From: a bacterium
Lineage (GTDB): Bacteria > Myxococcota_A > UBA9160 > SZUA-336
Length of the DNA: 53,002 nucleotides
Assembly: GCA_024226335.1 (NCBI GenBank)
Contig: JAAELY010000191.1
Location: forward strand, 1 to 53,002
Direction: 5' to 3'
Made by a program: the position numbers and the translations under genes. The notes beneath the pieces were generated by a model. That model ran no database searches. It had not been told where the DNA came from and saw only the letters and a list, made by a program, of their open reading frames with translations. The number at the start of each line of letters is the position of its first letter. Position 1 is the first letter of the stretch. Shown in pieces: positions 15,157-53,002 of the stretch.

Positions 15157-15654
15157 CTACCTCGTCATTTCCCGCAGGCCACTGGCTTCCCATTCCTTGG
15201 AAAGCTGCTGGAGCTTGCGGTTGAATTCGTCGAAATCATCGTCGAACGAAAGGATGATCTCGGTCGTGCGCGGGATGTCGTCGCCAGAAAGCAGTCCGCG
15301 ATAGCGGTTGAGATTGGCGAGGATGGCTTCGGCGACCTTGAGCGCGCGCTTCTCGGTCTTGATCAGCGGCGACTGCAGAGTGTAGACGTTGTTGCGGCCC
15401 CAGAGACTCTCGTCGCGAACGATCGCGATCTCTCGGTAGATGCCGTGGATCGGGTCGAAGTTGTACTCGACGCGGACCTCTTTGAAGATGTCGGAGTTGC
15501 CGGTGTAAAAGCCTCGCTCCTTCTCGACCTTGCCCAGCTGGCGGCAGCGGGGGCAGTAGAAGGTGTCACCGTGGTTGAGCAAGAAAACGCCCTTGGCGTA
15601 ATCCTCGCACTCAGTGTTCTCGCAGTAACCGACCCCGCGCTTCATTCGTGCCAT
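15157..15654 (-). CDS. Zinc-ribbon protein of unknown function
   Basis: This is a 165-aa soluble protein. An N-terminal zinc ribbon has four cysteines (residues 11, 16, 34 and 37; C-x4-C ... C-x2-C). It is followed by a basic/aromatic central region (RVEYNFDPIHGIYREIAIVRDE) and an acidic C-terminal helix (FDDDFDEFNRKLQQL). I recognise no specific family. The Cys arrangement suggests nucleic-acid or protein binding. The ATG at 15654 is chosen for the GGGAGAT upstream; an in-frame ATG three codons on is possible, and the open frame continues upstream without protein-like content. A strong terminator follows. Confidence 0.75.
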   Translation of the reverse strand: MARMKRGVGYCENTECEDYAKGVFLLNHGDTFYCPRCRQLGKVEKERGFYTGNSDIFKEVRVEYNFDPIHGIYREIAIVRDESLWGRNNVYTLQSPLIKTEKRALKVAEAILANLNRYRGLLSGDDIPRTTEIILSFDDDFDEFNRKLQQLSKEWEASGLREMTR

Positions 15655-23309: not shown

Positions 23310-24023
23310 CTACCGAAACAGATCGAGCGCCGGATCCCGCATTAGATCGGCCAGGCTTCCGTCGCCGTGGGGCGAGAGGCCCGTGATCCAGACGCACGGC
23401 GTGCCCGCGTCCTTTTCCATCAGCAGGCCGGCCGCAGCCGTCAGTTGATCTGCGGTCGCCAGGGCGGTCACCTGCATCTCACGGCCTTCCCGGTCGCGTT
23501 CGCCACGGTAGTCGCGCACCGGTTCCAGGCCGGCTACGCCGATGGTCACGTCGACCTGACCCTCGCGCCAGGGGCGTCCGAAGGTGTCGGAGATGAGTAC
23601 GGCTCGCTGCGGGCCCAGGGCCGCCAGGATCGCTCGCGCGGAGGCGTCGGGGTCCAGTGGAAGCAGGATTGCGCAGCCTTCGGGCGCGTTGGACTGATCG
23701 ATGCCCGCGTTCGCGCACACCAGTCCGTGGTGCGTCTCGGTGATCAGCACGCCCGGGGCCGCGCGCACCACGCGCCGGGATTCGCCGAGAGTCAGTTCGA
23801 CCAGACGCGGATCCTTGTCGACCTGTTTGGCGAGTTCGATGGCCTCGGCGGACGGCTTCACGCGCTCGAGCGGGATCACGCGATCTTCCGCCTTCGAGAC
23901 GATTTTCTGCGCGACCACGAGTACGCCCGGGCCTTCTGGGACGAGCTCGGCCAGCATGCGCGGCAGGTCATCGTGCGCGCGGATTTCCGGGAGGCCCTGG
24001 AGCGCGACCAGTTCGAGACGCAT
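23310..24023 (-). CDS. cofE: Coenzyme F420:L-glutamate ligase
   Basis: This enzyme adds glutamate residues to F420-0 with GTP, the last step of F420 synthesis. The 237-aa protein shows VVAQKIVSKAEDR near the N-terminus, ITETHHGLVCANAGIDQSN with metal- and GTP-binding residues, and ISDTFGRPWREGQVDVTIG. All are hallmarks of CofE. It is a stand-alone form, without the nitroreductase-like domain fused in mycobacterial FbiB. The ATG at 24023 overlaps the cofC stop by one base (TGATG). Confidence 0.95.
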   Translation of the reverse strand: MRLELVALQGLPEIRAHDDLPRMLAELVPEGPGVLVVAQKIVSKAEDRVIPLERVKPSAEAIELAKQVDKDPRLVELTLGESRRVVRAAPGVLITETHHGLVCANAGIDQSNAPEGCAILLPLDPDASARAILAALGPQRAVLISDTFGRPWREGQVDVTIGVAGLEPVRDYRGERDREGREMQVTALATADQLTAAAGLLMEKDAGTPCVWITGLSPHGDGSLADLMRDPALDLFR

Positions 24024-24661
24024 CAGGACAGCAACTCGCGCAGGATTTCGCGCGTGCGACACGGCACGGCGGTGGCGATCAGGCGTACCGCGTCATCGGG
24101 CGTGTCGAGGTCGACTCGCGTCGACTCGGGCATCGCCGTGTACCAGAGCGCTTCGCAACCGGCTTCCTGCGCGGCGATCTGATGTGCGCGACTGCTCTCG
24201 GGACCGAAGCGCGCGGGGATGCGCGTGGGCGGACGCCGCAGGAGGAGGGCGGTCCCTTCATCGGCGGCCGGTGCGATGACCACCGGGTAGTCCCCACTCG
24301 CATCGATCATCGCATCGATGTCCGCGCCCTTCAGCAGGGGAAGATCGCCCAGGACCACGAGCATCCCGTCGTAGCCCTGAGCTTCGAGATCCGCCGCCGC
24401 TTCGTCGATCACCGGGTTCAGACCGGGGTCGGGCTTGCGTTCGCGCACCCGGGCTCCGGCTTCCCGCGCGGCATCGGCGACGGCCGGATCGTCGGTCAGC
24501 ACCAGCACGCGATCGATATGTTTTGCGGACTTGAGCGCGTCGAGCACATCTGCAAGCAACGCTCGAAGGATGCGTTCGACTTCCGCGTCGCTGAAGCGCG
24601 AGCGCAGGCGCTTCTTGGCGCGCGTGAAATCCTTGACCGGAACCGCGGCAGCCAGTCTCAT
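24023..24661 (-). CDS. cofC: 2-phospho-L-lactate (or phosphoenolpyruvate) guanylyltransferase
   Basis: This nucleotidyltransferase activates 2-phospholactate or PEP with GTP to form the donor for CofD. The 212-aa protein has the N-terminal signature AAVPVKDFTRAKKRLRSRFS, VVLGDLPLL (metal-binding aspartate) and APAADEGTALLLRRP, as in the CofC/FbiD family. It is fully coupled to cofD (ATGA overlap) and cofE (TGATG). Which substrate is used cannot be told from sequence. Confidence 0.94.
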   Translation of the reverse strand: MRLAAAVPVKDFTRAKKRLRSRFSDAEVERILRALLADVLDALKSAKHIDRVLVLTDDPAVADAAREAGARVRERKPDPGLNPVIDEAAADLEAQGYDGMLVVLGDLPLLKGADIDAMIDASGDYPVVIAPAADEGTALLLRRPPTRIPARFGPESSRAHQIAAQEAGCEALWYTAMPESTRVDLDTPDDAVRLIATAVPCRTREILRELLS

Positions 24662-25596
24662 GCCGGATGTCCGGCCAGGTCCAGAGCGCTACGGGCCAGG
24701 TCCGCGGCGATCTCTACCTTTCGCATCAGCGTTTCCTCCACGCGCACTTCGATGTCGAGCGCCTCGATCTCGGCGCGCAGCCCGTCGTCCTCGCAATCGA
24801 TCACCATACCGCGGCAGATCTTCCGGTACAGCTGCGCAACGCCGAATGCCGACACGGGCACGCCCAGCGCTCGCATCAGCCGGTCCGCCGGCCCCTTGAC
24901 CGGCCGTCCGCCGATGATCGGGCTGACGGCCACAGCACAGCGGCGTGCCTCGAGTCGCTCCCGCACGCCGGGTACGGCCAGGATGGTTCCGATCGAGACC
25001 ACCGGGTTGCTCGGGCAGATCAGTATGGTTTCCGCTCCGTCGATCGCCTCGAGCACGCCCGGACCGGGGCGCGCCGCTTCCGCGGCCGACAGGTCCACCT
25101 TCGCGATGTCGTCGGGTGCGCCGTCGCGCACCATGTACTCCTCGAAGTCACAGCGCGAACCGTCCTCGCGCACGATCATTGTCGGAGCGGGGTCTTCGCT
25201 CATGGGCAGCAGGCGGATACCCAGGCCGAACGATCGCGCGATTTCACCGGCAATCTGCGCCAGGCCCGCGCCTTCGCGCAGACGCGAACTGCGCTGGATG
25301 TGCGTGGCCAGGTCGCGATCGCCCAGATTGAACCAGACGTCGGAGCGCAGTCCGCGCAGCGCATCCAGGCAGTGATAGGTATCCCCCTGGAAACCCCAGC
25401 CCGTGTCCGGATTGACCACACCGCCGAGCGTATAGGTGACGATGTCCAGGTCGGGGCACACGCGCAGTCCGAAGAAGTCGCGATCGTCTCCGGTATTGAC
25501 GATCACGGTCAGATCTTCGGGCGGTAGTACGCGTACCAGTCCCGCCAGGAATCGAGCTGCACCGACACCGCCCGCGAGCGCGACGACTCGGGGCAC
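24658..25596 (-). CDS. cofD: 2-phospho-L-lactate transferase (CofD)
   Basis: This enzyme transfers the phospholactyl (or enolpyruvyl) group to Fo, giving (dehydro-)F420-0. The 312-aa protein begins VVALAGGVGAARFLAGL, then VNTGDD, GWGFQGDTY and CPSNPVVSIG, all conserved in CofD. The start codon is GTG at 25596. The Rossmann-like strand begins immediately, so this start is secure. A MITE-like element ends 2 bp before the GTG, so its upstream region is element DNA with only a weak ribosome site. Before insertion the GTG would have overlapped the stop of the DUF4124 gene (TAGTG). Confidence 0.95.
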   Translation of the reverse strand: MPRVVALAGGVGAARFLAGLVRVLPPEDLTVIVNTGDDRDFFGLRVCPDLDIVTYTLGGVVNPDTGWGFQGDTYHCLDALRGLRSDVWFNLGDRDLATHIQRSSRLREGAGLAQIAGEIARSFGLGIRLLPMSEDPAPTMIVREDGSRCDFEEYMVRDGAPDDIAKVDLSAAEAARPGPGVLEAIDGAETILICPSNPVVSIGTILAVPGVRERLEARRCAVAVSPIIGGRPVKGPADRLMRALGVPVSAFGVAQLYRKICRGMVIDCEDDGLRAEIEALDIEVRVEETLMRKVEIAADLARSALDLAGHPA

Positions 25597-25598
25597 TA

Positions 25599-25760
25599 GT
25601 GTCCCGTTCCAGAAGTTCGCTGACTATCCCGGTGCCCGGACGCCCCGCTGGCAAGGCGGGAGGCCGCCGGAGTATCCGTTGATACTTCAAGGCCTTTCCA
25701 ACGCAGTCGGCGGGGATGGGCGGGCGTCGCGATAGTTGGCGAACTTCTGGAACAGGGCAC
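25599..25760. mobile_element. 162-bp MITE-like element with 33-bp terminal inverted repeats and TA flanks
   Basis: Arms 25599-25631 and 25728-25760 match as inverted repeats at 28 of 33 positions; both begin GTG and share GTTCCAGAAGTTCGC. The element is flanked by TA on each side (25597-25598 and 25761-25762). Restoring one TA gives the target CTAG, the preferred target of IS630-family transposases. A central hairpin (AGTATC-CGTT-GATACT, 25671-25686) lies at the exact midpoint, so the whole element can fold on itself. It has no transposase and would need one supplied elsewhere. It sits precisely between the DUF4124 gene and cofD. Confidence 0.85.
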
Positions 25761-26407
25761 TAGGGGTTTGCGCTCCGGCGCAGCCGTTCGAGCCGAGCCT
25801 GCATGCGCGGCAGCCGATCCGCGAGTTCGCGCAAGCGCTCATCCTTGGCGAGTTCGGCTCCCTGCCATTCGCGTTCACCAATCAGGCGGCGCAGTTCGTC
25901 TCGGTCGCGCTCCACGAGATCTTCGAGTTCTTCCAGGCTCAGGTCGCCGGTCGTTTCTGGGTCGATCGGCGGGTCGACCGGCACCGGGTTCGCCCGGGGT
26001 GTCTCCAGGCCCGTCTCGATGGGCGGCAGTTTCGGAGCGGCACTCGCGCTCGGTTTTGCGAGTGAGCCGGGTCGGGCCGCCGTCGGCGCAAGCATTTCGT
26101 CTCCGGGTGTCGCCGGATGGGGAAGCGGTTCAATCTTGTCTGCGGGTCTGTCGGCGTCCGCTTCGCGCAGCGGTTCGCGCAGCGGCGGAGCCTGTTCGGC
26201 GGTGTTGCGCCCGGTGCGAAGCTCCGGCGCCTGCGGGGCTTCGCGCACGACAAGAGATGCGCTGACTCCGCGCGGAATGCGTTCCGGATCCGTCGTGTAG
26301 TGGCGGATGCCTTCTTCGTCGATCCAGCGATACAGCTCAGCCTTCGCGCCCAGCGGCAGCGCGCACAAAAGGGCCATCAGCGCGATCTGGACGACGACGG
26401 ACCACAT
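25760..26407 (-). CDS. DUF4124-domain periplasmic protein
   Basis: This 215-aa protein has a signal peptide (VVVQIALMALLCALPLGAKA) directly followed by the DUF4124 core LYRWIDEEGIRHYTTDPERIP. A proline/alanine-rich linker of about 90 residues and a charged C-terminal helix (LSLEELEDLVERDRDELRRL onward) complete it. DUF4124 proteins are envelope-associated with unknown function. GGGGAG precedes the ATG. The last base of its TAG stop is the first base of the MITE-like element: the stop is kept because the element starts with G next to the duplicated TA. It was probably the first gene of the F420 operon. Confidence 0.85.
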   Translation of the reverse strand: MWSVVVQIALMALLCALPLGAKAELYRWIDEEGIRHYTTDPERIPRGVSASLVVREAPQAPELRTGRNTAEQAPPLREPLREADADRPADKIEPLPHPATPGDEMLAPTAARPGSLAKPSASAAPKLPPIETGLETPRANPVPVDPPIDPETTGDLSLEELEDLVERDRDELRRLIGEREWQGAELAKDERLRELADRLPRMQARLERLRRSANP

Positions 26408-52842: not shown

Positions 52843-52920
52843 CGCAGAACTCCGTAGCCTGCTAGGGAATCTCTGCACAGGGAGGAATCGAGCGAGAAGC
52901 GGGAGTCGCCGCCTGAGCAA

Positions 52921-52996
52921 GAAGCGTGATCCGATCGCAGATCCGTAGATCTGCAGAGGGTCGCGCGACGCAGCGCAGGCGGATGCATCACGCTTC
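52921..52996. repeat. Nested inverted repeats at the right window edge
   Basis: GAAGCGTGAT (52921-52930) is the exact reverse complement of 52987-52996. Inside lies a perfect 7-bp hairpin (GCAGATC-CGTA-GATCTGC, 52937-52954). The region lies upstream of the leftward sulfotransferase gene. It may be regulatory or the end of an element extending beyond the window; the edge prevents a decision. Confidence 0.45.
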
Positions 52997-53002
52997 GCAG
53001 CC

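Follow-up and report, generated by a model that had tools for sequence, protein, structure and literature searches.

How does a 162-bp palindrome come to lie exactly on a stop codon between two genes of an F420 operon without breaking either of them, and is it a mobile element or a part of the operon? We addressed these questions in a window of 53,002 nucleotides (the whole stretch of DNA analysed) from a bacterium of the lineage Myxococcota_A; UBA9160; SZUA-336, whose genome is called G000 below.

Structure of the element and of its insertion site

The element and the genes around it have the following coordinates in the window.

23310-24062, minus strand: cofE-like F420 gamma-glutamyl ligase (PF01996)
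24023-24661, minus strand: cofC-like guanylyl transferase, next gene of the F420 operon (PF01983)
24658-25596, minus strand: cofD, 2-phospho-L-lactate transferase, whose GTG start abuts the element (PF01933, TIGR01819)
25597-25598, no strand: left TA target duplication, within CTAG 25596-25599
25599-25760, no strand: 162-bp MITE, near-perfect palindrome, as judged by copies, folding and terminal identity
25599-25631, plus strand: left terminal inverted repeat GTGTCCCGTTCCAGAAGTTCG...
25644-25715, minus strand: conserved hairpin core CTGCGTTG...CGCCTTGCCAG, 74.4 bits with the R1 covariance model, the training set of which includes this copy
25728-25760, minus strand: right terminal inverted repeat GTGCCCTGTTCCAGAAGTTCG...
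25761-25762, no strand: right TA target duplication, within CTAG 25760-25763
25760-26407, minus strand: DUF4124 protein, TAG stop rebuilt by the terminal C/G of the element (PF13511, 30.1 bits)

The sequence-only reading had proposed a 162-bp element with 33-bp inverted ends and TA flanks, placed at a CTAG target with TA duplication. Both proposals were borne out at 25599-25760: left and right ends are identical at 28 of their 33 terminal positions, and each side shows a CTAG with its TA. The element carries no gene-like ORF. Folding of the region as single-stranded DNA gave -57.7 kcal/mol, compared to -33.3 +/- 3.3 for dinucleotide shuffles (z = -7.4). An Rfam search of the window at gathering score returned 0 matches, and neither a sigma-70 promoter nor an intrinsic terminator was detected in or near the element.

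Both genes are read from the minus strand, with the DUF4124 stop TAG at 25762-25760 and the cofD GTG at 25596-25594. This GTG agrees with the residues found in relatives just ahead of VVALAGG, and the cofD frame contains no further usable start upstream of it. Excision of the element in silico produced ...CCCCTAGTGCCCCGAGTCG..., i.e. TAGTG; with the element and one TA removed, the site reads CCCCTAGTGCCCCGAG, where DUF4124 stop and cofD start overlap as TAGTG, exactly as had been claimed. On this reconstruction, the empty ancestral site is a CTAG with the stop/start overlap TAGTG. Since the CTAG target is palindromic and the element starts with G and finishes with C, TAG is rebuilt on both sides. 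The CTAG target and the terminal G/C thereby leave both reading frames intact, the cofD GTG being retained, in agreement with the earlier view that both genes survived. As judged from these junctions, the element landed on the stop codon between two F420-operon genes without breaking either, and this copy exemplifies how CTAG targeting and G/C tips let an element enter an operon. In relatives, DUF4124 and cofD are adjacent, with tight junctions that in most cases lie between an overlap of 4 nt and a gap of roughly 20 nt; the close spacing is thus ancestral.

Dispersed copies and the origin of the insertion

Six full copies are present in G000, the five others being 92-95% identical to the window copy. 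At least 14 copies at 81-85% identity occur in a genome from another family of the class (G028), and one copy at 70% in G010. Derivatives in G000 include an internal deletion of ~83 bp, a tip-to-tip pair and a one-ended copy. The copies occupy differing sites, and TA flanks and CTAG are found at most of them, even though the window contains only 23 CTAG where dinucleotide shuffles predict 68, a three-fold depletion. Other members of the family with a readable DUF4124-cofD junction have no intact element there. Thus the sequence recurs in its own genome and in others rather than being conserved at this site, and the MITE identity put forward by the sequence-only reading is supported by six full copies, TA duplication, CTAG target and inverted ends. 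We conclude, with a probability of about 0.85, that a non-autonomous MITE, probably mobilised by IS630, went into the TA of the CTAG that the DUF4124 stop and the cofD start had formed, and that it is a member of a modular family.

Alternatively, the locus could be a conserved hairpin that regulates the F420 operon, as an attenuator or an RNA switch, and is not mobile. Its position between cofD and its upstream gene, a fold far better than that of shuffles, and a remnant at the same site in G002, from another genus of the same family, would fit such a role. However, six copies at unrelated loci (92-95% identical), TA flanks with a CTAG target, the absence of an intact element at the junctions readable in other family members and the lack of an Rfam match all point away from it. 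The dispersed copies already largely refute this explanation, which we regard as extremely improbable.

The remnant itself requires an explanation. In G002 (L075, G002:C196, ~15266-15287), TAG-TGTCCCGTTCAGGACAC-TAG lies exactly at the orthologous DUF4124 stop, which is followed by TAGTGTCCCGTTCAGGACACTAG, two fused tips of the window-element family; this string is unique among 91 class genomes. One old insertion in the common ancestor of G000 and G002, later mostly deleted in G002, would account for the exact position and for its uniqueness, and the AU test does not reject a clade of G000 and G002 (p = 0.144). The best trees nevertheless group G000 with G007 and G009, both without any remnant. 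Moreover, identity between the window copy and its paralogues is ~95%, whereas the CofD proteins of G000 and G002 reach only about 70%, which argues for a recent insertion in the window. G002 also carries at least one full element of the window tip family and seven cores, and could have received a separate insertion. A single ancestral event therefore appears unlikely; two independent insertions at the same stop codon would be more likely, because the window copy is too close to its paralogues for the G000/G002 split and G002 has its own element and cores.

A probable IS630-type partner

The sequence-only reading had suggested looking in the same genome for a full IS630-type element with matching ends. 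Matching ends were found, an intact copy was not. G000 contains a multicopy insertion sequence (IS; L054-L069, at contig ends) with tips CTAGTGTCCTGTTTCAGAAGTTCC (also given as GTGTCCTGTTTCAG) near-identical to those of the MITE. These tips run into transposase-like termini, MGQRGRPRAAVTLTDAERA at the left end and ...HNAAPKPFIWTKSAEQILDSIRRFCSRVLQVHARKH* at the right end, which we take to be the two ends of an IS630 transposase, a family assignment made from two terminal fragments. The copies are always cut at contig ends and their interior is missing from the assembly, which explains why a PF13358 search of G000 for an intact IS630 found nothing; a Pfam search with a 36-residue fragment of this transposase gave no match. 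An intact 1161-bp IS with related tips GTGTCCTGTCCCA is present in G059 and encodes an IS630 transposase (NF033545, 284.7 bits; cut-off 100). From the near-identity of the tips, the IS630-type insertion sequences of G000 probably supply the transposase of the MITE.

The target of an IS630-associated transposon is given as the TA in 5'-CTAG-3' (Tenzen and Ohtsubo 1991, cited in PMC2170065), and insertion of IS630 at this TA with TA duplication is established according to references in PMC2170065. MITEs of the IS630 family (Tc1/mariner superfamily) resemble the window element in TA duplication, CTAG target, absence of coding capacity, a length of ~160 bp and tips matching an IS630-type IS, a putative one in G000. 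By itself, the window element is a further member of this already known kind. Unlike a plain IS630 MITE, it has a central hairpin common to elements with non-IS630 tips and is therefore not simply an internal deletion of its partner IS.

A hairpin core shared across phyla

Scanning GTDB contigs for the tip revealed MITEs in Acidobacteriota, Gemmatimonadota and Gammaproteobacteria. Many of these measure exactly 159 bp and can be aligned along their full length with the 162-bp element. Conservation is highest in a central hairpin, which has an asymmetric stretch that does not pair (TGCGTT opposite GCCTT); 11 of the 16 pairs of this hairpin carry compensatory changes. Two covariance models were used, R1 for the central core and R2 built from GTGTCC-tipped elements only.

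R1 identified 95 places in G000 and was positive in 24 of 40 class genomes. Cores were also found in Gammaproteobacteria (Aquisalimonas lutea, Solimonas flava DSM 18980, a Competibacteraceae MAG and another MAG), in three Gemmatimonadota and in two Acidobacteriota. Core-bearing elements span at least four phyla, represented by the window's class, Gammaproteobacteria, Acidobacteriota and Gemmatimonadota. Plasmid and phage records gave no match to the core, and six other genomes with similar tips gave zero core matches at E <= 1e-4. R2 scored 27-64 bits on 19 loci, nearly all with non-GTGTCC tips, the maximum in 400 kb of background being 19.7. The abundant GGGAACC element reached only 20.9 bits with R2, so that its membership is based mainly on R1, length and layout.

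Near-constant length and exchangeable ends

Core-bearing elements have an almost constant length of 157-164 bp (159-164 bp in 15 with varied tips), and the window element, with its core in the middle, fits this layout. A few core-bearing places have only short inverted arms and span 89-106 bp; the constant length is thus a strong tendency and not a rule. Around the cores, CTAG- or TA-flanked palindromes show at least ten different tips, namely GTGTCCTGAGTCCGAAG, GGAGCCTGACCCAAGACTC, GTTTGGTGCATCCGCAAT, CAGGATGCTGAAAAACTCC, AGAACCCATCTCA, GCAGCCCGTCGAAGAACCC, GAGGGCATCTCATCC, GAAGCGGTCTC, GGGAACCTCTGCACAGGGAGG and others. The GGGAACCTCTGCACAGGGAGG-tipped element is the ~85-copy element of G000, one copy of which leaves the window at its right end.

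52865-53002, no strand: second MITE, tips GGGAATCTCTGCACAGGGAGG..., cut by the contig end; CTAG 52862-52865
52910-52982, minus strand: core of the second MITE (R1 36 bits, E 1.6e-6)

Many G000 contigs end inside a copy of this GGGAATCTCTGCACAGGGAGG MITE. Neither the second element nor the wider family with its core and differing ends figured in the sequence-only reading.

Some of these ends match those of another transposase family. An 18-nt tip, TAGGAGCCTGACCCAAGA, is identical between a core-bearing MITE of G015 and a complete 1.4-kb IS of the same genome, and this IS codes for a transposase of the IS1182 family (305 bits; cut-off 270). Core-bearing elements of ~160 bp in G015 and G023 carry the tips of a complete IS1182-family IS, also at CTAG. 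The window element has no IS1182 tips, and the IS1182 transposase (DDE_Tnp_1, not DDE_3) is unrelated to that of IS630. Given the IS630 tips on one side and the tip identity in G015 on the other, one core rides with the ends of two unrelated transposase families.

Could the core have arisen by convergence, GC-rich mobile palindromes merely looking alike with no tip exchange on a common chassis? Palindromy and GC richness do make part of the signal, and an IS630-type tip resembles an IS1182-type one (GTGTCCTGTCCCA and GGAGCCTGACCCA, 9/13) so that a few mutations could turn one into the other. However, the strongly conserved letters lie in the unpaired part of the hairpin, a model trained on a single tip family separates cores from the 400 kb background, the genomes bearing similar tips without the core remained negative, and element lengths agree to a few bases. 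These observations make convergence improbable.

The family is best described as a palindromic chassis of ~160 bp with a conserved asymmetric core and with outer ends similar to those of several CTAG-inserting transposases (IS630, IS1182). Core sharing and near-constant length are observed; from the identity of the tips, the chassis probably relies on a different helper depending on its host. A more far-reaching and tentative reading, to which we give somewhat less than even odds, is that the chassis is a functional parasite module in itself: its core would be kept by some recogniser (host factor, replication/repair or, on the RNA, RNase III) while its ends would be replaced, by point mutation or recombination, switching CTAG-specific transposases (IS630, IS1182, others) across hosts and phyla. 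The most likely readings of the core's role are a host-factor or RNase III site, or a constraint from hairpin-mediated transposition.

Relation to known systems

MITEs are usually explained as internal deletions of one local IS and are bound to that single transposase. A single hairpin chassis of near-fixed length that bears the ends of two or more unrelated transposase families, occurs in four or more phyla and reaches as many as ~95 copies in a genome does not agree with this picture and offers a concrete test of helper switching by non-autonomous elements. Literature searches on shared-core, chimeric and mosaic MITEs, on MITEs of Acidobacteria and Gemmatimonadetes and on the core string, which covered few subscription journals, returned nothing relevant; as far as they show, no chassis that combines near-fixed length, a conserved core and exchangeable ends has been described.

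REP/REPIN and BIME palindromes are, like the window element, high-copy, intergenic, palindromic and located at gene ends. REPs are described as 20-40 bp long (PMC3733652) and as tied to REP-associated tyrosine transposases (PMC2817692). Unlike them, the window element is 160 bp long with long inverted repeats and TA flanks.

The Correia elements of Neisseria (CREE/NEMIS) are closer in format, being ~155 bp, TA-flanked and palindromic with partly similar motifs (CTGCGGcTTCGtCGCCTTG), but they differ from the window family by other tips and a longer middle. Neither R1 nor R2 matched at six Correia-bearing loci. When the most similar members were aligned with Correia elements, 2 of 500 shuffles reached the score, an uncorrected and only suggestive figure. 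Correia elements were not retained as members of the core family, both models failing to support them and the alignment by itself being weak. In Neisseria-type prophage contigs (L320, L323, L325, L329, L333 and L334), Correia elements share CCGTACTATTTGTACTGTCTGCGGCTTCGTCGCCTTG with the G059/L071-type core, with weak statistics.

Predicted consequences for cofD expression

With the element in place, the DUF4124 stop and the cofD start, which overlap in the reconstructed empty site, stand 163 nt apart. Once transcribed with the operon, the element would form a 162-nt hairpin separating the two coding regions. The predicted RNA structure has the DUF4124 stop inside the basal stem and the cofD GUG directly after it; GGGA at the end of the element, the nearest Shine-Dalgarno-like stretch, is paired. 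The sequence-only reading took direct translational coupling to cofD to be lost; stop-start coupling is most likely reduced, which is the simplest expectation. Since the predicted hairpin brings stop and start side by side, hairpin-assisted reinitiation at cofD is conceivable as an alternative. The hairpin may also serve as an RNase III or stability site.

Insertion sites of the copies

Among 19 two-ended insertions in three genomes, 10 lie on a stop codon, 4 of these on a target common to two convergent stops; L004 and L135 have the same tandem geometry as the cofD copy. Two of the 19 are inside genes, the location of more than half of the background CTAG in G000 and G028. For comparison, the share of background CTAG sites that fall on stops is 15% in G000 and 14% in G028, a difference with a Mantel-Haenszel OR of 4.4 (z 2.8). 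Taken at face value, this enrichment would suit an insertion process that actively prefers stop codons, beyond mere survival there. Among sites outside genes, however, z falls to 1.4; 64% of the CTAG sites in G022 are already stops, and the gene calls behind these statistics come from a simple codon-model caller. As no excess remained once gene-disrupting sites were excluded, active preference was rejected, and we consider it quite improbable. The stop-codon excess among copies is instead attributed to selection against gene disruption together with the stop-restoring geometry.

The MITEs also occur next to each other. L138 (G028:C72), where two tips lie 1337 bp apart, was considered as a full IS and rejected, since it consists of a MITE followed by ordinary genes. 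At L138 and L136, a GTGTCC-tipped MITE directly adjoins one end of a further MITE-like palindrome (tip GAAGCCATCTCACAAACCCC), with a CTAG common to both; MITE ends seem to be used as targets by other MITEs. At L007 (G000:C489:12647-12717), two MITE ends point at one another with a single TA between them, as though an element had inserted at a CTAG made by another element and truncation had followed.
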